From positions 3,521,168-3,585,167 of the forward strand of contig NZ_CP009528.1 of NCBI RefSeq assembly GCF_000970025.1: DNA of 64,000 nt. The letters are read 5' to 3'. A program made the translations under genes and the position numbers. Below, piece by piece: positions 376 to 62,689 of the stretch. A model generated the notes under the pieces. The model saw nothing but the letters and a program-made list of their open reading frames with translations. It was not told the origin of the DNA and did not search any database. The stretch comes from Methanosarcina barkeri MS. GTDB lineage: Archaea; Halobacteriota; Methanosarcinia; Methanosarcinales; Methanosarcinaceae. The first letter of the stretch is position 1, and each line of letters starts with the position of its first letter.

Positions 376-924
376 TCAGGTTTTAAGTTCACCTACGCCT
401 TCAAGTTTTTTAACAACCCTTGCAGGATAGCCCAGAGCAAGACTATTTGGAGAGATATTGCGGTTAACTACGGATCCAACCCCTATTATTGAGTTATCCC
501 CGATTTCAACACCCTGCGTGATTATACATCCTGGATTCACAGAGACACCACGTCCGATTTTTATGGGAGCCATAGTTCTCGGATATGCCTGCCTTGTAGT
601 CAAACTTCCTCTTGTATGTGCAGATAATATGCACCTATCACCGATTTCAGAATAATCATCTATCGTAATTAATTCGGGGTGTATCCTATCAAAAATCACG
701 TCATAACCGACATATACATTCTCCCCGAGATTTACACCCCGCATCCTGTGTAATTTAGTTCTCCAAGAAGGAACGGGAGCGCTTGAGGCAAGCCGTTCTA
801 GAATCCAGTTTTTAAAATATTTAATGCCAAAAAGAAGTTTATTACTGTGGTAATGTTCCGCAATTTCGCAAAAGGTTACCTGGTCTCTATTAGACACTGC
901 AGTAGTCGTGCGAATACCCCCCAT
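376..924 (-). CDS. Hexapeptide-repeat acyltransferase (LbH/maltose acetyltransferase type)
   Basis: The 182-residue protein has a helical N-terminal half and a C-terminal left-handed beta-helix: degenerate hexapeptide turns run from about residue 67 (VNLGENVYVG) through IDDYSEIGDRC, IKIGRGVSVNPGCIITQ and VEIGDNSIIGVGSVV, ending in the LALGYPARVVKK closing motif common to CysE/MaaA/WbbJ-type O-acetyltransferases. It probably transfers an acetyl or other acyl group from a CoA or carrier-protein thioester to a sugar or small molecule. A TATA-like ATATAAAAT (minus strand, about 944-952) lies 20-28 bp upstream of the ATG, which suggests a nearly leaderless transcript. It stands 264 bp beyond the DUF362 gene in the same direction, so it may or may not belong to the carrier-protein cluster. 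Acceptor unknown. Confidence 0.8.
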   Translation of the reverse strand: MGGIRTTTAVSNRDQVTFCEIAEHYHSNKLLFGIKYFKNWILERLASSAPVPSWRTKLHRMRGVNLGENVYVGYDVIFDRIHPELITIDDYSEIGDRCILSAHTRGSLTTRQAYPRTMAPIKIGRGVSVNPGCIITQGVEIGDNSIIGVGSVVNRNISPNSLALGYPARVVKKLEGVGELKT

Positions 925-1187: not shown

Positions 1188-2327
1188 TTAACTTTTGTTT
1201 CTGCTTACAAGCTTCATAAGCAGTGATTTTTTTAATTCTACCGCATCGTTGGGGCAAAGTTCACGGCAGCAATAACAGTGAATGCATTTTTCCTCGTTAA
1301 TTTTGAGTGTTCGGTTTATTTCTTCGATGGCATGTGCCGAGCAGTTCGAAACGCAGGCTTTGCAAAGTGCACAGTTTGAAGTGTTAATAATGGGTCTTAC
1401 AGCCAACTGCTTTCTAAGGATTCTCATAAAGAAAGCTGGGATATAAGCAGTTATTCCACCTTCAGGGCTTTTGAACCTGACCTTTACTTTTTCCAGAGGT
1501 ACTCCTACAACTTCAGGATGCTCGGTCCCGAAACCTCTTTCGAGTGCAGCTTTATTTGTAGGGACCTTTAAGGGATCGATTCCTATAAGCCCAGAGGCCA
1601 CAATATCCAGGGCTACACAGTCATAACTAGCCATAATCACGCCTGCAAGGACAGGTGTACCATTGGATGGACCATTTCCTTCCATTCCGACTATCCCGTC
1701 CATAACTACAAGCTGGGGCTTAACAACAGAATATATATCAACAACTGCTTCTCCAAAACGGCGACGGTCTTCCAGGAAATGAACTTGTTTTCTGGTTTTT
1801 TGAGGTACGGCGCCGAAGAAATTTTTGACTGCCCCTGTATACAATGTGAGTTCATGGGTCTTGAGCTTTGGAAGCGAGATTACTATATCTGCCTCAAGTA
1901 CAGCTTTTGAGATGTACAGATGAGAAAACTGCCTTGCTCCCGGAACATCAACCTCAACAAAACCTGAAGTCTCAAAATTGATAAGCTCAACCCCATGATC
2001 GGAAGCAACGCCCTCAATGCCAGACACTTTAAGCGCCTGCGAAGTCGTAGTCGATCCGGGTTTTACAATACCGGACCCGTCTCCTATAACTGGGATGCCT
2101 CCAGCTTCTGAGACAAGTTCGCACATAGCGGACACTATCGCCGGATGGGTGGTAACGGCATCCTCTGGCGGACGTATAGAAAGCACATTGGGTTTGAGGA
2201 GCACGCGGCTGCCAGGAACTATAACCTTCTCAAGCCCACCTATAAGGTTCAGTGCTTCTTTTACCGCTTCTTTAGCATTCGAGTAGTCCTGGCATTCAAC
2301 AATTGAGACCCTTGTATCCATATTCAC
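1188..2327 (-). CDS. DUF362 protein with C-terminal 2x[4Fe-4S] ferredoxin domain
   Basis: This 379-residue protein has a DUF362 domain over about residues 1-290 (KPNVLSIRPPEDAVTTHP near the N-terminus, then PKLKTHELTLYTGAVKNFFG), followed by a bacterial-type ferredoxin domain near residues 312-365 with two cysteine clusters, CALCKACVSNC and CIHCYCCRELCP. The second reads CxxCxxCxxxCP, a classical [4Fe-4S] site. DUF362 proteins are common in anaerobes and their reactions are mostly unknown; a redox role is inferred from the clusters. Two starts are possible, GTG at 2327 or ATG at 2321, neither with a good ribosome site. It lies 196 bp downstream of the NadE-like gene in the same orientation and is the most likely redox partner of that cluster. 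Confidence 0.85.
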   Translation of the reverse strand: MNMDTRVSIVECQDYSNAKEAVKEALNLIGGLEKVIVPGSRVLLKPNVLSIRPPEDAVTTHPAIVSAMCELVSEAGGIPVIGDGSGIVKPGSTTTSQALKVSGIEGVASDHGVELINFETSGFVEVDVPGARQFSHLYISKAVLEADIVISLPKLKTHELTLYTGAVKNFFGAVPQKTRKQVHFLEDRRRFGEAVVDIYSVVKPQLVVMDGIVGMEGNGPSNGTPVLAGVIMASYDCVALDIVASGLIGIDPLKVPTNKAALERGFGTEHPEVVGVPLEKVKVRFKSPEGGITAYIPAFFMRILRKQLAVRPIINTSNCALCKACVSNCSAHAIEEINRTLKINEEKCIHCYCCRELCPNDAVELKKSLLMKLVSRNKS

Positions 2328-2523
2328 ACTTTTGGATTAGTGATTAAGTTTATTTTCTCACAATGATATTGTGTGAAAGCATCCTGCCAGAAAGGCTTCC
2401 AGTAGTTTACAGGCAGGTACTTGCTGCATACAAAGCCCTGCCTTGATTTTAAGCAAAGCCCTGAAGTCCTGATTTTAGCAGTATTTTAACCGGTATAACT
2501 TTTTTTACAGGTGCTTTTGCAAT

Positions 2524-3516
2524 TTACCTGTTAATGTAGCAAACAGGCGGTGCCGCTCGTATATATTCTGTGGTATCTTTTATTCTATTGATATGCCTCT
2601 GAGCTTTTTCTATCGTTTCTCTGGATAGCCCAGTGCTCTTTTCAATTACCTGCAGGGACAGCCGGTGCTCCTGTGCATACAACAGCTGGTCCATGATCTG
2701 AATCGGCATGCGCCAGTAAAATTCCTCGTCAGTTGTGTAATGGCTCCAGGTATCAGCACTTGGAGGCCGCTTTATGATCTCTTCGTTAACATTGAGCAGC
2801 TTCCCCAGAGCATAAACCTGAACTTTATAGCAGTCCGCCAGAGGTTCAAGATCTACGCCACCATCCCCATATTTCACAAACTGGCCAAGGACCGTCTCGG
2901 TCTTATTGGTCGTACCGCAAACTGCGTAATTCATCGTTTCAGCATACATATATTGAACAAGCATTCTGGATCTCTGTTTGACACCCTGTAATCCTATTAA
3001 TTCAAGATAATCAGTTGCTTTTAGCCGGTACTTTCCAACAGTTTCACCATTGTTTACTAGACAGATATAAGGAACATTTAGCAGGCCAGTGTTAAGGAAA
3101 TCAGGTAGTACCAGCGACGTTTTATGTATTCTGGCATCATATTCAGGGCAGATTCTCTTTAGAATCTTTTCTTTCTTATTATAGATATTAAGCGATCTCA
3201 AGATTGGAGAGATAGGCACTTCTTCATACGACACGCCAAGGCTTTCACAGATCTCCGCTCCCAGAACCTTACTGGAAGGGGCAGATTCTTCTTCAGGAAG
3301 GAGAAGTCCATATACGTTTTCTTTTCCGAGTTCCTGTACACATAGTGTAAGTATTACTGATGAGTCAATTCCTCCCGAAACCCCTATAACAACTCCTTTT
3401 TTCTTAAAACTCGCTACCTGATCTCTAATAAAACCCCTGAGCTTTAAGGCTATATTCCCAATATTTCCATTGAGTTCTTCTATTATATTCATGCTCATTT
3501 CTTCTGCGACTTGCAT
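2524..3516 (-). CDS. NadE-like NH3-dependent NAD synthetase paralogue
   Basis: The protein belongs to the N-type ATP pyrophosphatases. The PP-loop is GVSGGIDSSV, and the NadE signature region GTTNKTETVLG with KYGDGGVDLEPLADCYK is well kept. True NadE adenylates the carboxylate of deamido-NAD and displaces AMP with ammonia. The start is set at the ATG at 3516 because a GGGGGA site precedes it; the frame stays open 15 codons further upstream. With 330 residues it is longer than the roughly 250-residue archaeal NadE, mainly through a middle insert (about residues 95-165) and a C-terminal tail. It sits between the PP-loop ATPase and the DUF362 gene in a carrier-protein cluster. It may therefore amidate a pathway carboxylate rather than make NAD, although a housekeeping role cannot be excluded from sequence. 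Confidence 0.8.
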   Translation of the reverse strand: MQVAEEMSMNIIEELNGNIGNIALKLRGFIRDQVASFKKKGVVIGVSGGIDSSVILTLCVQELGKENVYGLLLPEEESAPSSKVLGAEICESLGVSYEEVPISPILRSLNIYNKKEKILKRICPEYDARIHKTSLVLPDFLNTGLLNVPYICLVNNGETVGKYRLKATDYLELIGLQGVKQRSRMLVQYMYAETMNYAVCGTTNKTETVLGQFVKYGDGGVDLEPLADCYKVQVYALGKLLNVNEEIIKRPPSADTWSHYTTDEEFYWRMPIQIMDQLLYAQEHRLSLQVIEKSTGLSRETIEKAQRHINRIKDTTEYIRAAPPVCYINR

Positions 3517-3546
3517 AACATTCCCCCTGAAATAATCATACTTTAG

Positions 3547-3608
3547 AATTACACTGTTCAAATTACACTGTTCAAATTACGCTGTTCAAATTACACTGTT
3601 TAAATTAC
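3547..3608. repeat. 14-bp tandem repeat, 4 copies plus a partial unit
   Basis: Unit aattacactgttca is repeated at 3547, 3561, 3575 (one change) and 3589 (one change), followed by aattac. It occupies the spacer between the PP-loop gene and the NadE-like gene, 30 to 90 bp upstream of the NadE-like start, so copy number changes would alter the spacing or leader of that gene. Confidence 0.9.
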
Positions 3609-3644
3609 CTATTTTACCTCAACTCGTTATCTTATAATCAAATT

Positions 3645-4712
3645 TTAACGAGTATTTTTTGTGATTTCTTTACTTTCAGTTTTAACGAGTATTTTTTGTG
3701 ATTTCTTTACTTTCAGTTTAAGCTTTCTTGCGGCCTCTTCTATCAATGGCTGTGACAATTCCTGATTAATTTTTTCAAGACCTTCTTCTCTTGACATTTC
3801 CCCGCTTCGGACAAGCCCTGCTACGTCGAAGGCATATGGATGAAACCCATATTTCTTCAGATGGTTATAACAGGCAAAGGAATTCAATGTACAGTTGGTT
3901 GAATTGCTGTCATTGATTCCCGGAAGTTCCCACCCGATTTTCAGCAGGGTCTCAAGCACTTTATCTTCACTGTAATCCCAAAGGCATAGAGGATGCAGAA
4001 TACTCGGAAAGTTTTCACCTATGCTCTCAAGAACTTCTTGTTTCAGGAGGAAAATTTCGTCCTTATCCTCGATACCTATTTTCTGAAGCTGTTTCTCAAA
4101 TAAGCTTCTGGACCACTGAATAAAATTGACTGATAGGTTGATTATGGGATTAGGAGACTGTCCAGCTGTAAAGGCAAATACGATAAAAGGCGCTTTTTGA
4201 AGAATGGCCTGCTCTATCAGCTTCTGTTTAATGATAGTGATGCAAATGTTGCATATGTCACTGGCTCGATATTTGGCGAATCTTGGAAATGCATCATATG
4301 ACTCTGCAGCTTTTCGGAATGTGTCATATAGAACTTTCTTTTCTATTGTCAACTGGAAATAATCACATTCTGTGATTTCACACATTTTTTTTGCATTCAT
4401 TATTGCGTTTTCCGAAATGAACCCGTTATCGAACTGCACAGCCAGTACCTTAAGGAAAGGATAGTCTTTTTTGAGCTTGTAGAGCGTATAAGACGAATCT
4501 TTCCCACCTGAAAGTGCATAAACTACATCGTAGTTCCCTTTTCCCCCATACTGCTCAAAAAGTTCTTCAATTCTGGCCAGATATTCATTTTTTTCCTGTG
4601 AACTAAGGGGAGTATATGTCGCACAGAAGTGGCAGAGGCCAGTTTCCTCATTAATTTGTATACCTGGAATCTCGGAATCCAGAACACATTTTTTACACAC
4701 TAGTTTTGACAT
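3645..4712 (-). CDS. PP-loop ATPase with N-terminal zinc-finger-like CxxC pairs (WbpG/N-acetyl sugar amidotransferase-like)
   Basis: The N-terminus carries two CxxC pairs (LVCKKCVLD and GLCHFCATY) followed by the PP-loop ALSGGKDSSYTLY near residue 67, the arrangement seen in WbpG-type sugar amidotransferases and related adenylating, AMP-releasing enzymes. Such enzymes activate a carbonyl or carboxylate with ATP for attack by ammonia or sulfur. A conserved-looking CNICI lies in the middle. The ATG at 4712 overlaps the end of the ligase gene (stop at 4693) by 20 bp, so translation is probably coupled. The C-terminus is odd: a 37-bp duplication is read in two frames and makes the last 25 or so residues. 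Substrate unknown; a role in the same pathway as the ACP and ligase is inferred. Confidence 0.8.
   Translation of the reverse strand: MSKLVCKKCVLDSEIPGIQINEETGLCHFCATYTPLSSQEKNEYLARIEELFEQYGGKGNYDVVYALSGGKDSSYTLYKLKKDYPFLKVLAVQFDNGFISENAIMNAKKMCEITECDYFQLTIEKKVLYDTFRKAAESYDAFPRFAKYRASDICNICITIIKQKLIEQAILQKAPFIVFAFTAGQSPNPIINLSVNFIQWSRSLFEKQLQKIGIEDKDEIFLLKQEVLESIGENFPSILHPLCLWDYSEDKVLETLLKIGWELPGINDSNSTNCTLNSFACYNHLKKYGFHPYAFDVAGLVRSGEMSREEGLEKINQELSQPLIEEAARKLKLKVKKSQKILVKTESKEITKNTR
3647..3720. repeat. 37-bp tandem duplication at the 3' end of the PP-loop gene
   Basis: Two adjacent 37-bp copies (3647-3683 and 3684-3720) differ at one base. Because 37 is not a multiple of three, the gene reads the first copy as LKVKKSQKILVK and the second as TESKEITKNTR followed by the stop. 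The duplication therefore created a new C-terminal tail. Confidence 0.95.
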
Positions 4713-6171
4713 GTTTGTACTCCTCTATGATGGATCGATTGGATATTTTCCCATTCTCGCTCAAGGGAAGGTGATCAATGAATAGTATTTCTCTTGGACA
4801 TAGATATCCTGGCAGGCTTTTTCGGCAGAATGCATACAACTTTCCAATTTCTGTCCCTTCTGCAGGTATGACCATGAGGCTAATTGCGGTCCCCATAAGT
4901 TCATGGTGCACAGGTACGACAAAAACCCTGGATACTTCGTTATTTTCCTCTATGTTTCTCTCAATTTCTCTAGGGTTAACGCGATGATCACCGATTTTTA
5001 GAAGGTCATCCTTGCGTCCCAGCAGTTTGATATATCCGTTGAGTAATTTCTGTGCGAGATCGCCGGTATGCAGCCACCCATTTATAATTTTCTGTTCAGT
5101 GGCAAGTTCATCATCCAGATAACCCAGCATAATGTTGTCTCCTGTAGCAACCAGTTCACCTGTGATGTTAAGTTTTGCTGGTCTGTACTCGGAATCAAAG
5201 ACATCCAGTATAACCCCTGGAATTGCTTTTCCTATAGTGTCAACGAACTCATCCACATCTTCTACTGGTAGGTAGGCAAGCCTTGCCGTAGCTTCAGTTT
5301 GCCCATACATTGGTAGAACCTCCAGATCTGGAGCTAATCCCCTTATGTCTTTTACAATATCCCTATCCATTCCTCCACCTGCTGATGCAGCAGTTCTAAC
5401 GCCTGCAAAAGCCTTTTTGAATCTATCCGGATATCGAAGGAGTATACGGTAGGTACTGGGTACCCCATAAAATATGGATACGTCTGATCTTATAAGGTTG
5501 AAAACAGAGTCTATAAAATTCATATTTCCAATCCTGACTGTGCTGCCAGATACCAGATGGGAGTTAATTATGGAATTTCCAAAAGCGTGATGTGGGGATA
5601 TCACCAGTGCTCCTTTATCTCTGGAAGTTATCCTGAGTACCTTTACTATTGACTCTGCGTTTGCTACCAGATTTCTGTCACTTAACATGACCCCTTTTGG
5701 GGTACCTGTCGTGCCTGAAGTGTAAAGGACGAGCTGCATTTGTGGATTATTCGTTTCTGTTTCAATCTTCTTGCACAAAAACTCTCCGAAAGTATTGCTG
5801 GAAATAACTATTACAGTTCCAAAACGCTCAAAAAAGTCTTCTCCAAATCTTGAGTACTGTGTATAAGTTGTAATGATATTGTTGACATGGGCAGCATCAA
5901 GAATTGTTTCAAGACTGAATTTAGGAAATTCTATAGGTAGAGGAATTGCGATATTGGCAGATCGATATACTGCCATGAGCACTTTTACATATAACATGCC
6001 TGATTCTGCCAGTATTGCAAACCGGCAGTGGTTAAAATCCATTAAAGGTGAAGCAATAGCATTTATATCATTGTCAAGGCAGCTATAGGAAATTGAACTT
6101 TTTCCCTCTTCCAGGGCAATGTTTTGAGGAGTCTTTCTGGCGTACTCAGTGATATACGCATCAATTCGCAT
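4693..6171 (-). CDS. AMP-forming acyl/amino-acid ligase (ANL superfamily adenylation enzyme)
   Basis: All core motifs of the ANL superfamily can be read in order: LVLYTSGTTGTPKG (A3, P-loop, about residue 150), YGQTEATARL (A5), GWLHTGDLA (A7), GRKDDLLKIGDHRVNPREIE (A8 hinge) and LPLSENGKIS with the catalytic lysine (A10). At 492 residues it is a full free-standing enzyme with both N- and C-terminal domains. It should adenylate a carboxylic acid and transfer it to a thiol. It begins 6 bp after the ACP stop, so the natural acceptor is probably the phosphopantetheine of that ACP rather than CoA. The acid cannot be read from the sequence. It overlaps the next gene by 20 bp. Confidence 0.9.
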   Translation of the reverse strand: MRIDAYITEYARKTPQNIALEEGKSSISYSCLDNDINAIASPLMDFNHCRFAILAESGMLYVKVLMAVYRSANIAIPLPIEFPKFSLETILDAAHVNNIITTYTQYSRFGEDFFERFGTVIVISSNTFGEFLCKKIETETNNPQMQLVLYTSGTTGTPKGVMLSDRNLVANAESIVKVLRITSRDKGALVISPHHAFGNSIINSHLVSGSTVRIGNMNFIDSVFNLIRSDVSIFYGVPSTYRILLRYPDRFKKAFAGVRTAASAGGGMDRDIVKDIRGLAPDLEVLPMYGQTEATARLAYLPVEDVDEFVDTIGKAIPGVILDVFDSEYRPAKLNITGELVATGDNIMLGYLDDELATEQKIINGWLHTGDLAQKLLNGYIKLLGRKDDLLKIGDHRVNPREIERNIEENNEVSRVFVVPVHHELMGTAISLMVIPAEGTEIGKLYAFCRKSLPGYLCPREILFIDHLPLSENGKISNRSIIEEYKHVKTSV

Positions 6172-6177
6172 ACCTTT

Positions 6178-6423
6178 TCACTTCGCCAGTTTGATTATCA
6201 TATTAGTAATTCCCTGCAGTGAATCAAAGTTTTCCGGTGTCAGCATATCTTCAGGAATTTCTATCGAATATTTTTCACAGATATAGTCCATAAGTTCAAG
6301 CAAGCCAATGGAATCTATAATACCGGTTTGAGTGAGAGAATCATTATCTTTCAAACTGCTGTTACTGTCCATAAAAGAATTAGCCTTTAAGTAATCGACT
6401 ATATCATTCTTTATTTGTTCCAT
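6178..6423 (-). CDS. Acyl/peptidyl carrier protein
   Basis: This 81-residue acidic protein is the size of a free-standing carrier protein. It holds the phosphopantetheine attachment motif GIIDSIGLLELMDYI with Ser38 directly after Asp37, and a C-terminal helix region IEIPEDMLTPENFDSL typical of the ACP fold. Archaea do not run a standard ACP-dependent fatty acid synthase, so a free carrier protein points to a specialised pathway. It is the first gene of a tight unit (6 bp to the ligase, which overlaps the PP-loop gene), and a phosphopantetheinyl transferase gene stands just upstream. A GGGGG ribosome site lies 9 nt before the ATG, and a TATA box lies about 100 bp upstream. Confidence 0.92.
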   Translation of the reverse strand: MEQIKNDIVDYLKANSFMDSNSSLKDNDSLTQTGIIDSIGLLELMDYICEKYSIEIPEDMLTPENFDSLQGITNMIIKLAK

Positions 6424-6771
6424 GTATTATTGCCCCCAAAGTGTTCGTTCAACGGACCAGTGGTCATAAATAACGCATTTCTGCCCATAATGACGTGAGT
6501 ACCAAATGATAATTACGTAATACAACTATATAAATAATTTGAGTTACTGTGTGGCCGACAAAAACACTGGTAAAGACAAAATGTGAGTAAAATCAATTGC
6601 CTGCATCCGTATGCATAGGATGATACAACTTAATTACTCAATAAAAATATAGATTTAGTCTACTATCCAGACAATCGGGCATTCACATGCGCACAGATAA
6701 ACCCAAAAAATAGAAAAAAGTGTACAGAACTTTAAAATCCTTCTTTAAACTTTAAATTTCATCGAAAATCT
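6424..6771. other. Intergenic promoter region of the ACP operon (348 bp)
   Basis: No gene is seen here. It holds the ACP operon TATA box at 6526-6535 and a small palindrome GACCAGTGGTC near 6458 within the probable leader. The rest is AT-rich; the end nearest the transferase gene may carry its terminator. Confidence 0.6.
6526..6535 (-). promoter_or_regulatory. TATA box of the ACP-ligase operon
   Basis: On the minus strand the sequence reads ATTTATATAG, a good archaeal TATA box. Initiation about 25 bp downstream would be near 6503 and would give the ACP a leader of roughly 80 nt. The sequence AATTACGTAAT, partly palindromic, lies just downstream of the box at about 6510. Confidence 0.55.
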
Positions 6772-7458
6772 TCAGTCCCAGTTACAGTCAATTTTTTGAA
6801 GATGATTTATATCAATAATATGCGACTCCGAACGGGTTACAATAGAGAATAAATATTTGTTGTCTAGAACATAAGTTAAATGATTAACGCTGTTGATGTC
6901 CAGTTCTTTGTTAAAAATAAGATACATGTTTTTGTTTGAAAACTTGGAATAGGCTTCTTTTAAAGTCCATGTTTTTAAAATATCGGTTTCACCTACCATT
7001 TCGTCCATGAGTGAAATTTTCTTATACAAGTTTTTAAAAGTGCTTTTAAGAACCAGCTTTCTCGCAAGTTCAATATCAATACCAACATCAACCTTTGAGA
7101 TTGCAAGAGCTGCAAGGCTCCCGGTATAAGATATACAAATGCATAGTTCATTGTGATTAAGAACGCAGACCTTCCCATTCTCATCTTTGTATGTGGAGAT
7201 TTCGGAAGCGGATCGCTCATTAGCAACCTTGCATATGATATGTTTTAAAACCGTTCGGGAGACAATATATCTTTTCTTAAAGTTATTTGTCTGCAGCTTC
7301 TCTAGATATTCCAGTTCTATCCTGCTGAGGTAACTTGCATTGAATATATTATAATTATCCAGGTCAACAAGAAAAACAAGAACATCATTCTGTTGCCACA
7401 GATAAGGAATATATTCAAGAGAAACGGAGAAAGGCAACATTAAATACTCATTGTACAT
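6772..7458 (-). CDS. Sfp-type 4'-phosphopantetheinyl transferase
   Basis: The two hallmark motifs are present: VGIDIELAR (Mg-binding Asp and Glu, about residue 100) and WTLKEAYSKF (WxxKEAxxK, about residue 145). The length of 228 residues fits the Sfp/AcpT two-lobe family, which moves phosphopantetheine from CoA to a carrier-protein serine. The partner is clearly the ACP encoded 350 bp downstream on the same strand. The frame opens at GTG 7467, but ATG 7458 is preferred: a TATA box at 7485-7494 puts initiation around 7460, so the message would be nearly leaderless. It has its own promoter, separate from the ACP operon. Base composition is as AT-rich as its neighbours. Confidence 0.9.
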   Translation of the reverse strand: MYNEYLMLPFSVSLEYIPYLWQQNDVLVFLVDLDNYNIFNASYLSRIELEYLEKLQTNNFKKRYIVSRTVLKHIICKVANERSASEISTYKDENGKVCVLNHNELCICISYTGSLAALAISKVDVGIDIELARKLVLKSTFKNLYKKISLMDEMVGETDILKTWTLKEAYSKFSNKNMYLIFNKELDINSVNHLTYVLDNKYLFSIVTRSESHIIDINHLQKIDCNWD

Positions 7459-7467
7459 GCAGTCCAC

Positions 7468-8865: not shown

Positions 8866-9744
8866 TTGAAAAACCGTATCTTCAGTATATTTTATCATGA
8901 GTATGAGCGAAGACTTCAGAGAAAGATTCTGAATTCAGAAATTCCGCATCATATAGCTGTGATTATGGATGGGAACCGCAGGTATGCAGGGCAAATGGGA
9001 AAGGATTCAAGTTTCGGGCATGTAATGGGGGGAGAAGCTACAGAAAGAGTAATTGAGTGGTGTTATGAGATCGGGGTAAAGCAGCTTACTCTCTACGCTT
9101 TTTCTACAGAAAATTTTAAGCGCTCCGAAGAAGAAGTCGACGAGATCTTCAATGTTATTAACGAAAATTTACTGAAACTCTACTCTGATCCAAGAACACA
9201 CGAAAAAGAGACACAGGTTCGCGTCATAGGAGATAGGTCAAAATTACCTGCTTTTCTGAATGAATCAATTGAAAAAATAGAAAAAGCAACGAAAAATTAC
9301 GGGAAGTTTTACCTGAACGTTGCCATTGCCTATGGAGGCAGGCAGGATATCATTCAGGCAGTCCGCGATATTGCAGGCTGTATTTCCAATGGGAAACTAT
9401 CTCTTGATGAAGTGAATGAAAGCCTAATTTCAAAACATCTTTATCCGGCCCCAGGGGCCTCGGTTCCAAATGTGGATCTTGTCATCCGCACTGGAGGCGA
9501 TGAAAGGGTTTCAAATTTCCTTCCCTGGCAGGCTAACGGAAGTGACTGTGCAGCTTACTTCTGTGCTCCTTTTTGGCCAGAATTCCGAAAAATCGACCTT
9601 CTTCGCTCGGTCAGAGTATATCAGGCCAGAGAAACCGAAAAAAAGCAGGAGCAATCATATAGAGTCTCAAAGGTTGTAAATTTCCTGGAAATGGGAACTC
9701 GTGAGGAAAAAAGCGAAGAGATTGGGCAACCTCAGTCCATTTAA
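8866..9744 (+). CDS. uppS: Cis-prenyltransferase (polyprenyl diphosphate synthase, UppS type)
   Basis: The enzyme adds isopentenyl units in cis to an allylic diphosphate to make the long polyprenyl chain that becomes the lipid carrier (dolichol type) for N-glycans and surface polysaccharides. Motifs in order: IMDGNRRYA (catalytic Asp, diphosphate binding), [13 protein letters not shown], and [19 protein letters not shown] near the C-terminus with the conserved Arg/Gly cluster. With the TTG start at 8866 it has 292 residues and an N-terminal lead of normal length. That start lacks a good ribosome site. A perfect AGGAGG (about 8793) lies 7 nt before ATA 8806, and the frame is open from there. 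The product would serve the AglB and glycosyltransferase genes further along the window. Confidence 0.92.
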
Positions 9745-28650: not shown

Positions 28651-29010
28651 ACATGATTTAGGGATAGTTAGAGTTTTAAAACATGATTAGGAGATATTTA
28701 AAGATTCAACACGCGATGTAGGGATATTTAAAGGTTTAACACGTGATATAGAGATAATTAGGTAGTTAACACGTGATATAGAGATAATTAGGTAGTTAAC
28801 ACGTGATATAGAGATAATTAGGTAGTTAACACGTGATATAGAGATAATTAGGTAGTTAACACGTGATATAGAGATAATTAGGTAGTTAACACGTGATATA
28901 GAGATAATTAGGTAGTTAACACGTGATATAGAGATAATTAGGTAGTTAACACGTGATATAGAGATAATTAGATAGTTAACACGTGATATAGGTATAATTA
29001 GAGCTTCAGT
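28651..29010. repeat. 30-bp tandem repeat, 12 units, homogenised in the centre
   Basis: Units align every 30 bp. Seven copies from 28741 to 28950 are identical (each with gttaacacgtgatatag across the junction), the eighth has one change, and the outer units on both sides are progressively degenerate. There are no spacers, so it is not CRISPR. The period is a multiple of three and creates a spurious minus-strand frame repeating SRVNYLIISI. It sits just upstream of mntP. Confidence 0.97.
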
Positions 29011-29287
29011 ACATGAGAATATCTGAGAGTTAAAATCCTCAAAATACCTATATGCCTGGTTATTACCCTTTTGATGATCCAATAAATATACAATCAGATT
29101 TAAAACTATGTATTCTGTACAGGCAACTGATGAAAAATACTTTTTGAGAGGAGAAGGATAATAAATAGATCTCGTCAAACTCCAGGCAGGCTAAGCCCAA
29201 AAGATCTGCATAACATGATTAGAAGAAACAGTGTTTAAATTAAATTGCTGTGCGGATACTTTCACTTTGTTCATACATTAGTTCTAC

Positions 29288-32295: not shown

Positions 32296-34818
32296 TTATG
32301 CCTTTATTTCTTCTCCATTTAATACGGCTTCTTCACTTACTTTCACTTCTTTTGTCGTATCTCCATAACTCACTACATAAGGTCCCGAAGGTGCAGTATC
32401 AAACTGCGTTTCGCCTGTAATCGGGCCATCTGTTGAATAAGGCACTGTAAACTCGTACCTTCCCTGAGAGTCTGCGGTTGTTGACTGCGAGTATCCAAAG
32501 GTTCTTCCCTGGTCCGTAAGAATTGTCGTGTTTATATTAACGGTCTCATTGGGGGAAGCTGTGCCTGTTATATTTGCACCTTTGACGTACTCGAAGATTT
32601 TTACATATCCGGTGTCTACTTCAGGGAGTTTGCCTCCGTAGAAGTAATTATAGACCTGTTTATATCCGACCTCGTCAGTTTGGTAGGCCTCAGTCTCGTG
32701 AACCATACGGTATTGTTTCAAGCCATTTCCGTCAAAAATATGCAGTTTTGCTTCCATGGAATTAAAATATCGGGTAGAAGGTATGCTCTGATATTTGCTA
32801 CCTGTCCAGTAAGCCTGATAATATCCGTCAGTATCAAGAGTCCAGGCAGGCATTGCCCCAAATATCTCTGTAGCCATTCTGGCATCAGACATTATGTAAC
32901 GTGAACCCATTTTGTCAGGCCTTGGATCTATGGCTTTGAGTACGGCAGTTGCTTCTTCTTCGGATGGAGCGGTAAAGAAGGTTGCAGCTCCCGGCTGGTT
33001 TGTCTCGTTAATACTTACCCTGCGGCCTCCTATTCCTGCCTGGAACGGATTCGCATTTGGCATCCTGTGCCCTATTGTCTCTATGTAGTGCCCGTAGTCC
33101 CACCAAGACATAACACCGTATGCAGTGTCTGGATACTGGAACATCTCTCCGTTTGTTGGGGCTTCATAAATGGTATTGTAGTTCATACCAGGGTCCGGGG
33201 TGTTTGAGTGGAGCCAATTACAGGCTTCCGTCCAGGGCTCATTAGGCTCGTCTGAGCCAACTGCATATAGCATTGCATATGCACATACCGGATAGATCAG
33301 AAATACCACTATAAGCAGGACTGCTAAAACCTGCTGTACTTTGACGAATTTCAATGCTTTCGGGACATCTGCAAGCGATTTTACATCACTTTTGAACTTC
33401 TGGTCAAGTTCACTCCATTTTACTTTTTCAAGTAACAATCCACCCAGATATGCACTCAGGATTGAAACGTTTATTGAATAGTAATATGCAAAACGGTTCT
33501 GACCGTAAATTGCAAGGAGGATAAAGAAACTCCAGACAAGAACCAGAAATTCCTGAGGCTTTGGCCTTCTAAACAGGTTTGCAGCCAGAATAAGCATTCC
33601 TAGAATAGAAGCGAGAAATCCCGTAGTAGTAAAATTTGAAAAAACTTTAGATAGAGTGAAGACGCCATCATTGTAAAATATAGAAGTAGCTTCACCAATT
33701 GTGGAAGGTCCTCCCTGTTGAATCCCAAAAACAGTGTTTGGTGCACTTATGATAAGAGAATACAGAGATGGAGATGCGATTTTAATAACAATAAACCCTA
33801 GAATGCCAGCTCCGAGAATGATAAGAGGGTAGTAATAAGCCGTCATTTGCTTTCTTTTGAATTCCCTTTCAATAAGACTCAAAGCCGCAAAACCTGCCAT
33901 TGTCCCAAGAGATGTGATAACATGGAACCAGGAGTAATAATACAGAGAAAAACCCATGTCAGGATGGACAAATGGAAGGATAAGGATTGTACTTACCAGA
34001 CAGGTGACTATGCCTGTAAACCCAAGGTAGTCACTGGATTCATTCCGGAAATTGTCCAAGATATACTGGAATATAGCATAAACGAGAACGATTAATAAAA
34101 ATAGTGAGCCTCCGGGCCAGCAAAGCTGGTAAGCTGAGTACATGACTCCAGCCAGAACTGAGTATAGAAAAGGTTCTTTCAGGACAGTGAATTTCTTATT
34201 GAACACGTCTTCAAAACGCAGATTTTTTTCCTTTGCCGAAATCAAAGCCAGCATGAAAAACATCATGAATAAAGTACTGAATAGTGACTCTGCAACATGA
34301 TGATCAGTGAACCCGACCAGTGAACGGGTCAGAAACTGCCCCGGAGCAAGTGCAATAAGGATCGCAGCCAGAACTCCTGTTTTATGCCCACCAAGGTATT
34401 TTCCTATGTAATAAACAGGAATTACAGTCAGAGCTCCGAGAACTGCAGGAAAATAAGCTCCAACAGTATCAACAAGATGAGAGCTGGGATGACCCATTCC
34501 AAGAATCAGGGAAGTAATAGCCATCATTTGATCAAACAATGGACCAAAATGTATGTAACTCCCATTAGGATAGTTGGTCATGGGATTGAAAAACATCCTG
34601 TGAGGGTAGTTTTCAAGCAGAACTCTTAAGGTACGCATATGGTACCACGCATCGTTGGTCGCAAACTTTACGGACCCATCGGACAAGAACACCGTAGCTG
34701 AAGGAAGTGTCCTGACCCATAGAGATATAAAACCGATTATCGCAACTGCCAGAGCATAAGGCCAGCTGGACTTGATTTTGTTTTGAAATGATGATACAGG
34801 ATGATCCTGAGAACTCAT
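32296..34818 (-). CDS. aglB: AglB oligosaccharyltransferase (STT3 family), copy 1
   Basis: AglB moves a lipid-linked glycan to Asn in N-X-S/T sites of proteins outside the membrane. The N-terminal two thirds hold 11 to 13 membrane helices, with NDAWYHMRT in the first external loop (catalytic Asp) and FTDHHVAES in a later loop. The external C-terminal domain starts near residue 520 with the signature SWWDYGHYIE, followed by IGGRRVSINETNQPGA. ATG 34818 is preceded by AAGGGGATT; 840 residues. A TATA-like tract is at about 34850-34860. It is the last of three tandem paralogues. Parts are identical to copy 2 and others to copy 3. Confidence 0.95.
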   Translation of the reverse strand: MSSQDHPVSSFQNKIKSSWPYALAVAIIGFISLWVRTLPSATVFLSDGSVKFATNDAWYHMRTLRVLLENYPHRMFFNPMTNYPNGSYIHFGPLFDQMMAITSLILGMGHPSSHLVDTVGAYFPAVLGALTVIPVYYIGKYLGGHKTGVLAAILIALAPGQFLTRSLVGFTDHHVAESLFSTLFMMFFMLALISAKEKNLRFEDVFNKKFTVLKEPFLYSVLAGVMYSAYQLCWPGGSLFLLIVLVYAIFQYILDNFRNESSDYLGFTGIVTCLVSTILILPFVHPDMGFSLYYYSWFHVITSLGTMAGFAALSLIEREFKRKQMTAYYYPLIILGAGILGFIVIKIASPSLYSLIISAPNTVFGIQQGGPSTIGEATSIFYNDGVFTLSKVFSNFTTTGFLASILGMLILAANLFRRPKPQEFLVLVWSFFILLAIYGQNRFAYYYSINVSILSAYLGGLLLEKVKWSELDQKFKSDVKSLADVPKALKFVKVQQVLAVLLIVVFLIYPVCAYAMLYAVGSDEPNEPWTEACNWLHSNTPDPGMNYNTIYEAPTNGEMFQYPDTAYGVMSWWDYGHYIETIGHRMPNANPFQAGIGGRRVSINETNQPGAATFFTAPSEEEATAVLKAIDPRPDKMGSRYIMSDARMATEIFGAMPAWTLDTDGYYQAYWTGSKYQSIPSTRYFNSMEAKLHIFDGNGLKQYRMVHETEAYQTDEVGYKQVYNYFYGGKLPEVDTGYVKIFEYVKGANITGTASPNETVNINTTILTDQGRTFGYSQSTTADSQGRYEFTVPYSTDGPITGETQFDTAPSGPYVVSYGDTTKEVKVSEEAVLNGEEIKA

Positions 34819-35379
34819 AATAATCCCCTTTAAGAGGTAAGTTTTTTCAATCAAATATATAATTTGTGGAAGAAGAAAATCAAATAGATAATATTATCCT
34901 ATGCAGGCAAATCAGCCTGATTATTTATAGTCCTGATAGTTTATGTTCAGAAACTTCATGCAGCTTTCATACTGAGCCTATCAGGATAGGCTTCATCGAT
35001 TCGATATTACTGAAATTTTTGCTCATCTTTCCTGAAGCAGGTTTTCTCAAGCTGTCTACTTTTGAAACAGTAATAAGTCTTCTAAAAGACGTGGCAACTC
35101 TTCTGATTCCACCTTGAGAATCCATCTTAGACGTGAAACGAAGTTGTTAACAGTATATAAAAGTATATGTGATTGAAGGATATATAAATGAAAGTATATG
35201 CAACTGGCAGATATAAAAGTATATGTAACTGGTGGATATATAAAATAATTGTTCTAAAAAAATGGCAGTCTTTTTTTAAAATTTTAGAAGTGTTTTTTAG
35301 AAGAATAAAAATAAGAATAAAAAAGAAGAAGAAAGGAGAAATAAAGGTACATTATAGTAAACAATAGCACATTCTACTT
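34819..35379. other. Spacer upstream of aglB copy 1 (561 bp)
   Basis: No gene. The sequence is related to the spacer upstream of aglB copy 2 (39050-39590): both hold a TATA-like tract next to the start, a TTTATGTTCA...CATACTG..CC segment, and GAAACAGTA.T..TCTTCTAAA. This shows that the duplicated unit included the upstream region. Short direct repeats of AGTATATG type occur at 35150-35225. Confidence 0.6.
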
Positions 35380-35577: not shown

Positions 35578-36716
35578 TAGGAGTTACGCAGTTGGCTCCT
35601 AGCATATTGTTTTTTCCAAACTTTCAAATATTTGAATTAATTTAACGTGTATTGGGGATTCCTTAAGTATTCTGTCACTGCCACTCTTCTAATTTTCATA
35701 GCACTTTCAAACCAGGATATTCCACTTTTGATTCTTTGTAATTCCAGTCTAAGAAAAGCTCTTAATGAGAACATTATATGTGCTCTTTGTGATTCTTCCT
35801 TTCTTGCCTGACATTTTTCGACACCACAGAACTGTTTTATTCCCCTATGATATTCCTCAATTTTCCATGACTTCTTTGCCAAATCTTCACGTTTTGCTTC
35901 ATCCATCTCTTGCACATCTGTAACCCAGTGTTGCGTGTCTCCATTTTTTGAAACTATCCTAAACACCTTTACAAATCCATATGCTTTGAGGTGAACCACA
36001 CGTCCTTTTGGAGGAATATCTACTGTTTCAAGTGGCACATTTCCCTTGTTGTCAGGATTTACCAAACGATTATTTTTCAATCTTGTAAGGAAATGCCACT
36101 CTTTCTGTCTAATGGCTTTAAGGTTTTTCACACTTGCATACCATGTATCAAATAAAACGAATTTGGGATTAAAACCACGTTCTTCGGCCTTGTCAAGCAT
36201 ATCACGGAAATGGTCATTCTTTGTTTTGTCGTCTACATCGATGTTATAAATTCGAAAATCGATAGGTATAACGGTTGTACCGTCAGTCCAAACTAAGGTA
36301 ACCAGGCCTATTCCCTTTACAGTACGATGATGTTTTCCACTCCACATACGACGAACAAAAGCAATTTCTTCTGCGTATGGTTTATCTAATGTTGAATCAT
36401 CAACAATTAGGTATCCTCCCTTAAGCTTGACATAACTTTTTACTTCCTCCCATAGTGCTTCCGTGTCTGGAGGTTGCCTTTGAAGGCAACGAGTAAAAGC
36501 ATCATGAGAAGGAGCATTAGCTATGTCTGGATAACATCTAGCAGCTTCAGTACAGCTAAAAACGTTAGAAGCCGCAATGAGAAAATTAATGTAGTCAATG
36601 TCGGTACACTTAGGTGGATTTATGTCCATAACTCCGTACGTTTTTAGAGAAACACTAAGCCATAAGTATATTTATAAAGATATCAAGTTTTCGGCATTTT
36701 AACTGCGTAAGTCCTA
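35578..36716 (-). mobile_element. Insertion sequence, 1139 bp, in the 3' end of aglB copy 2
   Basis: The ends TAGGAGTTACGCAGTT (35578-35593) and AACTGCGTAAGTCCTA (36701-36716) are inverted repeats with one mismatch. TGAGT is duplicated on both sides (35573-35577 and 36717-36721). Removing the element and one TGAGT restores an uninterrupted AglB frame (RTFEYTQSTTAD), so the insertion is clean and recent. It carries one transposase gene. The family is probably IS701/IS4-like by transposase motifs. Its ends are shared with the MITE at 17670. Confidence 0.95.
35637..36629 (-). CDS. IS701/IS4-like DDE transposase
   Basis: The 330-residue protein has the first catalytic Asp in LIVDDSTLDKPYAEEI, followed by MWSGKHHRTVKGIGLVTLVW, a second Asp in FVLFDTWYAS, and WKIEEYHRGIKQFCGVEKCQ, where the Glu and the YxxxxK-like spacing resemble the YREK box of IS4-superfamily enzymes. 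Proteins of this pattern are usually filed as IS701 family in Methanosarcina and cyanobacteria. The gene has no frameshift and appears intact, so it can in principle move both this element and the MITE with matching ends. It ends 59 bp inside the left end and starts 87 bp inside the right end. Confidence 0.92.
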   Translation of the reverse strand: MDINPPKCTDIDYINFLIAASNVFSCTEAARCYPDIANAPSHDAFTRCLQRQPPDTEALWEEVKSYVKLKGGYLIVDDSTLDKPYAEEIAFVRRMWSGKHHRTVKGIGLVTLVWTDGTTVIPIDFRIYNIDVDDKTKNDHFRDMLDKAEERGFNPKFVLFDTWYASVKNLKAIRQKEWHFLTRLKNNRLVNPDNKGNVPLETVDIPPKGRVVHLKAYGFVKVFRIVSKNGDTQHWVTDVQEMDEAKREDLAKKSWKIEEYHRGIKQFCGVEKCQARKEESQRAHIMFSLRAFLRLELQRIKSGISWFESAMKIRRVAVTEYLRNPQYTLN

Positions 36717-39049
36717 TGAGTATATTCAAAGGTCCGTCCCTTATCCGTAAGGATTGTAGTGCTTATTTTAACAGTTTCATTCGGAGAAGCCGTGCCTGTT
36801 ATATTCGCACCTTTGACGTACTCGAAGATTTTTACATAGCCGGTGTCTGTCTCAGAGAGCTTACCTCCGTAGAAATAATTGTAGACCTGTTTATACCCGA
36901 CCTCGTTGCTTTGGTGGGTATCAGTCTCGTAAACCATACGGTAATGTTTCAAGCTATTTCCGTCAAAAATATACAGCTTTGCTTCCATGGAATTAAAATA
37001 TCGGGTAGAAGGTATGCTCTGATATTGACTACCTGTCCAGTAAGCCTGATAGTACCCATCAGTATCAAGAGTCCAGGCAGGCATTGCCTCGAACATCACT
37101 GTAGCCATGTAGGCATCAGCTATTACGTAACGTGCACCCATTTTGTCAGGCCTTGGATCTATGGCTTTGAGTACGGCAGTTGCTTCTTCTTCGGATGGAG
37201 CTGTGAAAAAGGTTGCAGCTCCCGGCTGATTTGTCTCGTTAATGCTTACCCTGCGGCCTCCGATTCCTGCCTGGAACGGGTTCGCATTTGGCATCCTGTG
37301 ACCTATTGTCTCTATATAGTGTCCGAAGTCCCACCAAGACATAACACCGTATGCAGTGTCTGGATACTGGAACATCTCTCCGTTTTTCGGGGCTTCATAA
37401 ATGGCATTATAGTCCATTCCCGGATCAGGAGTATTTGAACGGAGCCAGTCACAAGCTTCCACCCACGGACTAGGGGTACCGTTTGAAATTTTTGTATATG
37501 CCATCGCAGATCCGTATACCGGATAAATCAAAAATATTACTATAAGAAGGACTGCAAAAACCTGTTCTACTTTGACGAATTTCAACGCCCTCGGGATATC
37601 TGCAGGCGACTTTACATTACTTTTGAACTTCTGGTCAAGTTCACTCCACTTTACTTTTTCAAGTAACAAGCCTCCAAGATAGGCACTCAGGATTGAAACG
37701 TTTATGGAATAGTAATATGCAAAACGGTTCTGGCCATAAATTGCAAAAAGAATTAAAAGACTCCAGATAAGAAGTAACACTTCCTGAGTCTTTGGTTTTC
37801 TGAACAGGTTTGCAGCCAGAATAAACATCCCGAGCAGAGATGCGAAAAATCCCGTGGGAGTGAAATATTCATAAGCTTTGGACATGGTAAAGACGCCGTC
37901 GTCGTAAAATGTAGAAGAAGCTTCACCAATTGTCGAAGGTCCTCCATGTTGAATTCCAAAAACAGTGCTCGGTGCGTTTATAATCAGGGAATAAAATGAA
38001 GGAGATAAAATTTTGATAAATATAAGCCCAAGAATACCAGCTCCGAGGATAATCAGCGGGTAATAATAAGTCTTCATTTTCTTTCTTTTGAATTCCCTTT
38101 CAATGAGACTCAAAACCGCAAAGCCTACCATTGTTCCAAGAGCAGTAACGACATGGAACCAGGAGTAATAATAAAGTGAAAAGCCCATGTCAGGATGAAC
38201 AAATGGAAGGATAAGGATTGTACTTACTAAGCAGGTGACTACACCTGTAAACCCAAGGTAATCGCTTGACTCATTCCGGAAGTTGTCAAAGATATACTGG
38301 AACACGGCATAAACAAGAACAATTAATAAGAAAAGAGAACCTCCTGGCCATGAAAGCTGGTAAGCTGAGTACATAACACCAGCCAGAACCGAGTATAGAA
38401 AAGGTTCTTTCAGGACAGTGAATTTCTTATTGAACACGTCTTCAAAACGCAGATTTTTTTCCTTTGCCGAAATCAAAGCCAGCATGAAAAACATCATGAA
38501 TAAAGTACTGAATAGTGACTCTGCAACATGATGGTCAGTGAACCCAACCAGTGAACGGGTCAGAAACTGCCCCGGAGCAAGTGCAATAAGGATCGCAGCC
38601 AGAACTCCTGTTTTATGCCCACCAAGGTATTTTCCTATGTAATAAACAGGAATTACAGTCAGAGCTCCGAGAACTGCAGGAAAATAAGCTCCAACAGTAT
38701 CAACAAGATGAGAGCTGGGATGACCCATTCCAAGAATCAGGGAAGTAATAGCCATCATTTGATCAAACAATGGACCAAAATGGATGTAGCTCCCATTAGG
38801 ATAGTTGGTCATTGGGTCGAAAAACATTCTGTGGGGGTAGTTTTCAAGCAGAACCCTTAAGGTACGCATATGAAACCAGGCATCATTAGCCGTAAACCTT
38901 ACAGACCCATCGGATAAGAACACCGTAGCTGAAGGACATGTTCTTATCCATAGAGATATGAAACCGATTATCGCAACTGCCAGAGCATAAGGCCAGCTGG
39001 ACTTGATTATATCTTTGAACGATGATACAGGATGATCCTGAGAACTCAT
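36683..39049 (-). pseudogene. aglB: AglB oligosaccharyltransferase copy 2, C-terminus cut off by an IS
   Basis: From ATG 39049 (AAGGGATT site upstream) the frame runs 788 residues and ends 14 residues inside the insertion sequence (THRTYAVKMPKT). About 65 residues of the external C-terminal domain are lost. The membrane part, NDAWFHMRT, FTDHHVAES and the signature SWWDFGHYIE (Phe for the Tyr of copy 1) are intact. The missing part is a peripheral beta-rich region, so the truncated enzyme may still fold; whether it works is unknown. A 1.2-kb stretch near the 5' end is nearly identical to copy 1, and another block to copy 3. Confidence 0.9.
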
Positions 39050-39590
39050 AACAATCCCTTTAGAGATAAGTTTTTTCAATTAAGTATATAACTTATAGAA
39101 GAAGAAAATAAAATAGGTAATATTATACAGATATGTAATAATATACAGGCAATTAGGTCTTATTATTCACTAGTTATAATTATAGTTGTTCAGAGCTACT
39201 TTATTTATGTTCATGAATCTCATGCATATTTCATACTGGGCCGGTCAGAAAAGTCTTCAAGAGATTCAGTATTCCCGGTTTTGCTTTTCTTCCCTGGCTC
39301 GCAGGCTCTCTAAGACTGCCTACCTCGAAACAGTAGTGTCTTCTAAAGATGTGTCAATATTCTAGTTCCACATTAAGAAGCTCTTTGGTATGTAAAAAAC
39401 TTTATTAATAGTATATAAAAGTATATGTAATCTGTCAATTTATAAAAAACAAGCATTCTGGAAAGAGGGGGGAGCTACTATAAAATATCAAAAATAAGCC
39501 GTTCAGGAAGATAAAATAAAAATAAAGATAAGAAAAGAAGGAAAAAGAAATAAAGGTGTGAAATTAACTTAACCACACATTTCGAGTTGT
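39050..39590. other. Spacer between aglB copies 3 and 2 (541 bp)
   Basis: No gene. A TATA-like AAGTATATAAC lies about 35 bp before the copy 2 start. The middle is related to the spacer upstream of copy 1. A purine-rich tract (39500-39555) near the copy 3 stop has a counterpart at the end of the other two copies. Confidence 0.6.
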
Positions 39591-61283: not shown

Positions 61284-62689
61284 CTCAGCTCCTCCCATAA
61301 ACATCATCAAACCTGACAATATCCGCTTCGTCTACAAGCTCCCCTAACTGCACTTCAATAATCTCAAGCGGAATTTTTCCCGGATTGGACAATCTGTGTT
61401 TTTCACCTGCACTGATAAAAGTACTCTCGCCAGGTCTCAGGAAAAACTGCTGTCCGCTTACTTCCACACAGGCCATACCTTTAACAACCACCCAGTGCTC
61501 ACTACGATGGTAGTGCAGCTGGAGGCTTAACTTATGGTCAGGAAGTACGGTTATATTTTTAATCTTATGCTCCGGAGAAACTTCAAGTAGGGTATACGTG
61601 CCCCAGGGCCTGTAAACAGTTTGACCTATGTATGCCCTTTCATCATTCCGGTCTTTAAGAGTTGAGACAATATCCTTAACCTTCTGGCTACTGGATTTAG
61701 GGCAGACTAAGAGAGCATCACTAGTATCAACAATAACCATGTCTTTAACATCAATGAGCGAAACAAGCTTACCGCAACTTGAATATACGAGATTTCCATC
61801 GGAGTTCAGCATCAGAGGATCACATTCATGGACTACATTTCCTACAGGGTCCTTTTCAAACTCGTCATAAATTGCTGCAAAATTTCCCAGATCGCTCCAT
61901 TTCTGCTCAAGTTTTACAACTGCGACTCTGTAGGATTTTTCCATTATCCCATAGTCAACGGAAATCTTATCCACACACGAATAAATCTCATTAATATCAT
62001 TTCCGTTTTCAAAACAGGTGAAAACAGAAGGTGCATATTTTTTAACTTCGTCAAAGAAAAGTTCGGTATCAAAAAGGAACATACCACTGTTCCAGAGGCA
62101 GCCTTCCTGAATATATTTTTCTGCAGTTTCCCGGTTCGGTTTTTCTCGGAATTCAGAAACCCTGTAACCTGGCCCACAGGCTTCTGAGGGTTTAATATAA
62201 CCATATCCAGTGTGAGGAAAAACAGGAACAACACCGAAAGTAACCAGATAATCAGAAGCAAGATATTCAGCCGAAGCAATTGTTTGCATTGCAGCTCTAT
62301 CAAGGACATGGTCCGAAGAAAAAATCCCTACTACAGAACGCCCATATTTGTTTTCAATTATTCTCATTCCAAAGAAGATCGCAGGGAGAGTATTCTTGCC
62401 TTCAGGCTCGATTAAGACATTTTCTGGAGGGATTGAGTATCCTATTTCCTCAATCTGTCCGATTACGAAAAATTTTTGAGCTTCATTCGTTACAACGAAA
62501 ATTTCGGAAATATCAGAAATATCAAGACACCGAAGGACGGTTTCCTGAAAAAGAGACGCATTTCCAAACTTTAAAAACTGCTTGGGATACATTTCCCGGC
62601 TGAGAGGCCAGAGGCGTGTTCCTGAACCGCCTGCAAGAATTATGGATTTTATAACTGTCATCTCCTGTAGATATTGGTTAAAATGGATG
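61284..62689. repeat. 1406-bp direct repeat containing manC, right copy
   Basis: Partner of 57759-59164. Sequences outside both ends are unrelated. Recombination between the two copies would delete the flippase and the broken GT2 gene and leave one manC. Confidence 0.95.
61285..62661 (-). CDS. manC: Mannose-1-phosphate guanylyltransferase / mannose-6-phosphate isomerase, copy 2
   Basis: The protein is identical in all 458 residues to copy 1 at 57760-59136, with the same nucleotidyltransferase and cupin domains. It precedes the flippase gene by 151 bp on the same strand. Duplicate genes with no protein change and two silent DNA differences point to very recent duplication or continuing gene conversion. 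It may serve as the promoter-proximal gene of a second glycan operon. Confidence 0.95.
   Translation of the reverse strand: MTVIKSIILAGGSGTRLWPLSREMYPKQFLKFGNASLFQETVLRCLDISDISEIFVVTNEAQKFFVIGQIEEIGYSIPPENVLIEPEGKNTLPAIFFGMRIIENKYGRSVVGIFSSDHVLDRAAMQTIASAEYLASDYLVTFGVVPVFPHTGYGYIKPSEACGPGYRVSEFREKPNRETAEKYIQEGCLWNSGMFLFDTELFFDEVKKYAPSVFTCFENGNDINEIYSCVDKISVDYGIMEKSYRVAVVKLEQKWSDLGNFAAIYDEFEKDPVGNVVHECDPLMLNSDGNLVYSSCGKLVSLIDVKDMVIVDTSDALLVCPKSSSQKVKDIVSTLKDRNDERAYIGQTVYRPWGTYTLLEVSPEHKIKNITVLPDHKLSLQLHYHRSEHWVVVKGMACVEVSGQQFFLRPGESTFISAGEKHRLSNPGKIPLEIIEVQLGELVDEADIVRFDDVYGRS

Follow-up and report, generated by a model that had tools for sequence, protein, structure and literature searches.

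A conserved five-gene carrier-protein cluster in Methanosarcina and related genera, with a predicted role in acyl amidation and possible thioamide formation

Introduction

What does a methanogen do with an acyl carrier protein (ACP)? According to published work, most archaea have none, the few that do acquired it from bacteria, and fatty acids are believed to be made in archaea without it (PMC3533463). In Methanosarcina barkeri MS (NZ_CP009528.1), six genes on the minus strand between positions 1188 and 7467 encode a 4'-phosphopantetheinyl transferase (PPT), an ACP, a ligase (LIG), a PP-loop enzyme (PPL), a NadE-like enzyme (NADE) and a DUF362-ferredoxin protein. All coordinates are positions in the window, the whole 64,000-nt stretch of DNA that was analysed. 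We conclude that the first five of these genes form a co-inherited, carrier-protein-based pathway that did not arise by chance, and that an ACP-bound acid probably receives nitrogen and/or sulfur from the two PP-loop enzymes. Our preferred reading, at a probability of about 0.42, is that PPT, ACP, LIG, PPL and NADE form the core of a carrier-templated pathway independent of nonribosomal peptide synthetases (NRPS) and may work like the closthioamide system: NADE would make an amide, PPL would then make a thioamide, and an acyltransferase would off-load the product. Gene set, packing, co-inheritance, motifs and the arrangement of PPL-like and NRPS domains in a relative constitute the evidence at the level of sequence, from which we infer all the reactions and the sequence in which they run, together with substrate, acceptor and product.

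Gene content and layout of the core

The core features, in the direction of transcription, are as follows.

6772..7467, minus strand: PPT, Sfp-type 4'-phosphopantetheinyl transferase (Pfam ACPS 19.2 bits, below the cut-off of 25; NCBIfam AusB/HetI partial)
6178..6423, minus strand: ACP, free-standing acyl carrier protein (PF00550 23.0 bits, cut-off 20.8)
6310..6312, minus strand: ACP Ser38 codon, predicted phosphopantetheine attachment site (DSI motif invariant in 40 relatives)
4693..6171, minus strand: LIG, AMP-forming carboxylic acid ligase (PF00501 163.7 bits, plus PF13193)
3645..4712, minus strand: PPL, PP-loop enzyme, predicted to be a [4Fe-4S] sulfur-inserting enzyme like CtaC/TtuA (TIGR03573 WbuX 118 bits, below the cut-off of 203)
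4242..4253, minus strand: codons of PPL C154-N-I-C157, predicted Fe-S ligands (invariant; spacing equal to CtaC C154/C157, PMC6772006)
3891..3893, minus strand: PPL C274 codon, predicted third Fe-S ligand (invariant; CtaC equivalent C284)
2524..3561, minus strand: NADE, divergent NadE-like enzyme, predicted ammonia ligase (NCBIfam PRK00876 472 bits, cut-off 313)

The six leftward genes and their tight packing, reported in a first-pass annotation of the same DNA, were confirmed; at this locus ACP and LIG are 6 bp apart and LIG and PPL overlap by 20 bp. The PPT frame opens with GTG at 7467 and has an in-frame ATG at 7458, the end given in that annotation. For NADE the listed start is TTG at 3561, and alignment makes the ATG at 3516 more likely. 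The open reading frame (ORF) list and a Pfam scan revealed no condensation, ketosynthase or thioesterase gene in the cluster region, again as first described. Short tandem repeats (aatttgaacagtgt) lie in the PPL-NADE gap at about 3560-3615, just upstream of NADE, and the length of this gap varies between genomes from 10 to 330 bp.

Conservation and distribution

PPL and NADE occur in the identical 51 of 112 Methanosarcinaceae genomes, spread over 5 of 14 genera, when relatives are counted at E better than 1e-77 (PPL) and 1e-40 (NADE); the PPL search counted two further genomes, which hold a distant paralogue only. The ACP was detected in 48 of these 51 genomes, and the three misses are assemblies 60-81% complete. 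Among 40 loci with flanks and nine from named Methanosarcina contigs, the order PPT-ACP-LIG-PPL-NADE is kept in nearly all that have enough sequence, in all five genera, and ACP adjoins LIG in nearly all that have enough flank. Across other loci, LIG and PPL usually share exactly 20 nt (39 of 46), and ACP and LIG mostly stand -4, 4 or 6 apart (37 of 40). The cluster genes are under purifying selection, with pairwise dN/dS of 0.04-0.20 for ACP, LIG, PPL, NADE, DUF362 and the acyltransferase gene HEX described below, and 0.20-0.31 for PPT.

Co-occurrence of all six genes in relatives had been proposed as a check, and it held for the five core genes; three of the five genera have no DUF362 gene next to the cluster. 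The objection that the first-pass annotation had raised against itself, neighbours not conserved together, does not hold, because the neighbours are kept together in related genomes. Its suggestion of reduction with ferredoxin-type electrons as a core step is not supported, given those three genera without an adjacent DUF362, and the reduction itself is weakly supported.

Apart from a single distant NRPS-like ligase of bacterial origin, a scan of genome contigs matched nothing but Methanosarcina loci. One genome outside Methanosarcinaceae (G274) has LIG-like, PPL and NADE genes beside a GNAT-like protein and glycan genes. A 3.1-Mb genome, G103, holds three copies of the cluster (L058, L059, L060), two of which adjoin indolepyruvate oxidoreductase-like genes and a nearly identically duplicated glycosyltransferase/flippase block. 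Similar iorAB-like neighbours occur at the extra copies L058, L060, L062 and L063 and were not used as functional evidence.

The complete genomes G087, G017, G029 and G032, which belong to this genus or family, lack the cluster, and it is therefore dispensable. This bears on the product, which had been proposed to be a small metabolite or a cofactor; an essential cofactor is improbable, given that some complete genomes of these genera do without the genes. NAD salvage, methanophenazine synthesis or another role in cofactor or primary metabolism would fit the NAD(+) synthase label that family models give NADE and the prenyl diphosphate synthase gene nearby (8866-9744), and we regard it as very improbable. 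The genomes without the cluster include lineages that presumably need methanophenazine, and this product, like any other essential cofactor, was rejected on the patchy distribution.

A dedicated carrier system

Both halves of a carrier system are present, and each is the only one of its kind detected. PPT keeps the motifs G-x-D-x-E and W-T-x-K-E-x-x-x-K (WTxKEaYxK) in 31 relatives and, although it falls short of the Pfam ACPS cut-off, is the only PF01648 match in the genome at the sensitivity of the model. The ACP is likewise the only PF00550 match at model sensitivity; its DSIGL motif is invariant, and its closest NCBIfam models are AmcB, OlsHI-ACP and AsbD. The earlier idea of a dedicated transferase, carrier and ligase in a methanogen is thus upheld, and no other carrier protein was detected in the genome. 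Two Methanosarcinaceae assemblies (G098:C89 and G014:C28) contain large NRPS-like carrier-protein ORFs of 3008 and 2466 residues with two to three PP-binding domains, which are either genuine or contaminant.

LIG retains the A10 lysine and has alanine where alpha-amino-acid adenylation domains of the PheA type have Asp235. The code positions were placed with few reference sequences, a PheA segment among them, and the absence of Asp235 was all that they yielded towards predicting the acid. The alanine makes an acid without an alpha-amino group more likely on these few references, so that an alpha-amino acid would be an unlikely substrate.

NADE, a divergent NadE-like enzyme

NADE belongs to the NadE fold family, with a PP-loop, and scores 472 bits against the PRK00876 subfamily. 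It shares the KYGDGGVD motif with NH3-dependent NadE but is about 55 residues longer through an extra segment, and its substrate loop reads PSADTWSxxTxDxxFxWRMP in place of the canonical PSAGLWxGQTDE. Family models annotate it as NAD(+) synthase. A second, canonical NadE with the usual loop (PSAGLWAGQTDE) is encoded in the same genome at about G000:C2:1329302-1330096. We rejected NAD salvage because this canonical enzyme exists and the NADE loop differs. Single-domain NadE enzymes use NH3, as demonstrated for M. jannaschii (PMC3376133), and such use would suit NADE, as it has no glutaminase partner.

PPL and its cysteine triad

In 44 PPL sequences the SGGKDS motif (D72/S73), an N-terminal tetracysteine of C6, C9, C27 and C30 (CxxC...[GN]xCxxC), and C154-x-x-C157, C243, C274 and C281 are all invariant. 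The best-scoring family model, the N-acetyl sugar amidotransferase TIGR03573, is matched at 118 bits vs a cut-off of 203, and there is a weak match to the QueC model. PPL resembles WbuX/WbpG (LpNASAT, PDB 8WEX, PMC10607449) in family model, PP-loop and N-terminal tetracysteine zinc motif, and differs in lacking HisH/HisF, in an extra invariant CxxC...C triad and in its carrier-protein context. The triad cysteines C154, C157 and C274 are missing in two HisH/HisF-flanked proteins from Limimaricola and Sphingomonas (L128, L129), which are genuine acetamidino-type amidotransferases, and in 8WEX an acidic residue occurs close to where C274 would be. HisH/HisF were not found near PPL in the 12 cluster loci checked, nor near triad-bearing methanogen PPL paralogues in six control regions. 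PPL is thus no typical N-acetyl sugar amidotransferase, and a plain enzyme of the WbuX type lost ground as a candidate because HisH/HisF are missing and the cysteine triad is present.

The solo WbuX-family proteins of Methanosarcinaceae at L131-L136 carry a CxxC...C triad with no HisH/HisF nearby, and for these the name N-acetyl sugar amidotransferase may be wrong.

In its spacing the triad resembles that of sulfur-inserting enzymes. CtaC of closthioamide biosynthesis in Ruminiclostridium cellulolyticum depends on D77/S78 and on C154, C157 and C284, requires a [4Fe-4S] cluster, uses sulfide in vitro and accepts only carrier-bound substrate (PMC6772006); the PPL counterparts are D72/S73, C154, C157 and C274. 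The tRNA thiolases TtuA, TtcA and NcsA (PMC10067955) share with PPL the PP-loop, the N-terminal zinc motif and a three-cysteine [4Fe-4S] pattern, which in NcsA comprises C142, C145 and C233 (PMC10067955). Their third cysteine is spaced by 88 residues as opposed to 117 in PPL, and their substrates are tRNA, with no carrier. AlphaFold models of PPL and NADE, run with nine close homologues each, had mean pLDDT of 36.9 and 57.8, too poor for use.

Carrier links in bacteria

Bacterial relatives tie both PP-loop enzymes to carrier proteins. In a plasmid-encoded NRPS of Roseovarius (aa 461-1333), an adenylation domain (461-781), a PPL-like domain, the C-terminal part of the AMP-binding region (1186-1241) and a peptidyl carrier protein domain (1271-1333) follow one another, so the counterparts of LIG, PPL and ACP form one chain. 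A Streptomyces PPL-like domain is fused to a partial condensation domain, beside NRPS and AsnB genes.

Rhizobium, Mesorhizobium, Shinella, Nitratireductor and Roseateles have genes for AsnB, an ACP, a ligase and NadE side by side. Both cassette NadEs that were scanned fall in the NCBIfam subfamily of NADE, and all four that were aligned carry the additional stretch of some 55 residues as well as the altered loop RPPTTDT[WFY]S...P. The same type of NadE therefore links an ammonia ligase to carriers in both archaea and bacteria. What differs is the second ATP-dependent enzyme, PPL in the archaea and AsnB in the bacterial cassette. The cassette is conserved and plasmid-borne in Rhizobiales and relatives (L084, L088, L089, L090, L093, L094), and no publication on it was found in the open literature searched. 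It shares with the archaeal cluster an ACP of the small-ACP group, an AMP-forming ligase, a PRK00876 NadE with the extra segment and a second enzyme of ATP-pyrophosphatase fold; unlike the archaeal cluster, it has AsnB and not PPL, no PPTase and, in some cases, a GNAT-like neighbour.

Closthioamide Cta, among the closest known systems, is likewise NRPS-independent and found in anaerobes, with a carrier protein, an acyl-activating ligase and a PP-loop enzyme bearing SGGxDS and the CxxC...C triad. Unlike Cta, the archaeal cluster shows no ATP-grasp, transglutaminase or beta-alanine oligomer genes, has one ACP where Cta has two, includes a NadE-like enzyme and resides in an archaeal host. Together, the PPL-like domain embedded in the Roseovarius NRPS, the AsnB cassette and the CtaC-like triad lend support to the first-pass proposal that the tethered acid may be amidated or thiolated.

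Proposed pathway

In the preferred reading, PPT would convert ACP Ser38 to the holo form, and LIG would adenylate a small carboxylic acid, probably one with a second carboxylate and no alpha-amino group, and load it on the ACP. NADE would then adenylate the free carboxylate of the bound substrate, and attack by ammonia would give a carboxamide. PPL, as a putative CtaC/TtuA-like adenine nucleotide alpha hydrolase with a [4Fe-4S] cluster, would adenylate the amide oxygen, and exchange with sulfide would yield a thioamide. An acyltransferase would finally pass the acyl group on to an amine or a hydroxyl, which may belong to a surface glycan; the candidate is the left-handed beta-helix (LbH) protein at 376-924 in this genome and perhaps GNAT-like proteins elsewhere. 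That the whole sequence of a primary carboxamide from a NadE-derived ligase, a primary thioamide from a CtaC/TtuA-like Fe-S enzyme and attachment to a surface glycan or small acceptor is correct, making this the first archaeal thiotemplated system with its own ACP and PPTase, is doubtful in that complete form. No earlier account of the archaeal cluster or of its thioamide logic was found in the open literature searched, subscription papers lying outside the search.

Several observations weigh against the preferred reading. The match between PPL and CtaC is one of cysteine spacing only, made from published residue numbers. Triad-bearing PPL paralogues also lie outside carrier contexts in methanogens, so the triad alone implies no carrier substrate. 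AsnB replaces PPL in the bacterial cassette, a swap compatible with thiolation but equally with a second amidation; one extra copy of the cluster (L060, genome G103) has no visible NADE; and the glycan context is uneven among loci.

The AsnB observation leads to an alternative in which NADE and PPL both add nitrogen on the ACP to give a diamide, an amidine or, by QueC-like conversion of amide to nitrile, a nitrile, with no sulfur involved. The bacterial cassette pairs the same NadE with the nitrogen-adding AsnB, the top model for PPL is the amidotransferase WbuX with QueC as a weak match, and the PPL-like domain of Roseovarius passes the QueC cut-off (25.7 vs 22). PPL, however, carries the triad that the two HisH/HisF-dependent amidotransferases lack, has no glutaminase partner and is not an orthologue of AsnB; we consider double nitrogen addition unlikely, if still worth serious attention.

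Accessory genes and glycan surroundings

Two further genes accompany the core in this genome.

1188..2327, minus strand: DUF362 protein with two 4Fe-4S motifs, accessory and outside the core (PF04015 207.7 bits, plus Fer4)
376..924, minus strand: HEX, left-handed beta-helix (hexapeptide) acyltransferase, accessory, candidate off-loading enzyme (PF00132 41 bits, WcaF-like)

HEX, part of the Methanosarcina version, was overlooked in the first-pass annotation, as was a FabG-like short-chain reductase (SDR) in an ancestral-looking version of the cluster. Methanosarcina and genus g12 are the only groups where DUF362 and HEX are neighbours of the core, and HEX is next to the cluster in most loci of both. 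The SDR gene follows NADE in g5, g7, g11, g12 and one Methanosarcina (KYL-1); it was not found in this genome, where the best relative is 38% identical. Because the adjacency of DUF362/HEX and of the SDR differs by genus, the core is five genes with a varying redox partner, and the SDR looks like part of the ancestral cluster.

Glycan genes flank several loci. UDP-GlcNAc 3-dehydrogenase and nucleotide-sugar dehydrogenase genes lie beside L046 (G016), WecB/WecC and glycosyltransferases beside L052 (g11), and glycosyltransferases and a flippase near L122 and the extra copies L058 and L060; some bacterial AsnB-ACP-ligase-NadE cassettes are also near glycosyltransferases or polysaccharide genes. 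Given these glycan genes and the neighbouring LbH or GNAT-like acyltransferases, one may reasonably guess that a sugar receives the completed acyl group. The same surroundings, together with LbH acyltransferases being typical of such pathways, would also suit a glycan-sugar pathway in which PPL is an amidotransferase for a sugar carried on a nucleotide or lipid and that sugar gets an N-acyl group from ACP, LIG and LbH or GNAT proteins, the operon being shared only through one glycan. We judge this improbable, given the identical 20-nt LIG-PPL overlap in most loci, the absence of the HisH/HisF partners of acetamidino pathways and the PPL-like domains built into NRPS proteins.

Elsewhere in the window, two 458-aa mannose-1-phosphate guanylyltransferase-like proteins with identical translations (57760-59136 and 61285-62661) lie 3.5 kb apart and are a recent duplication within a glycan region. 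Three tandem AglB-like oligosaccharyltransferase paralogues occupy 32296-34854, 36683-39079 and 39591-42116, and a transposase-like ORF (35637-36629) separates the first from the second. An ORF at 28687-29178 on the minus strand with many ISRVNYLIIS repeats is probably a tandem DNA repeat and no gene.

Implications

The operon is conserved, holds the only ACP and PPTase detected in this methanogen and belongs to a genus open to genetic work, so that carrier-protein use in archaea becomes directly testable. If the amide or thioamide reading is true, the cluster would give strict anaerobes a short, five-gene path to amides or thioamides, genes now called NAD synthase and N-acetyl sugar amidotransferase would be re-read, and the archaeal genes would be linked to the bacterial AsnB-ACP-ligase-NadE cassette.

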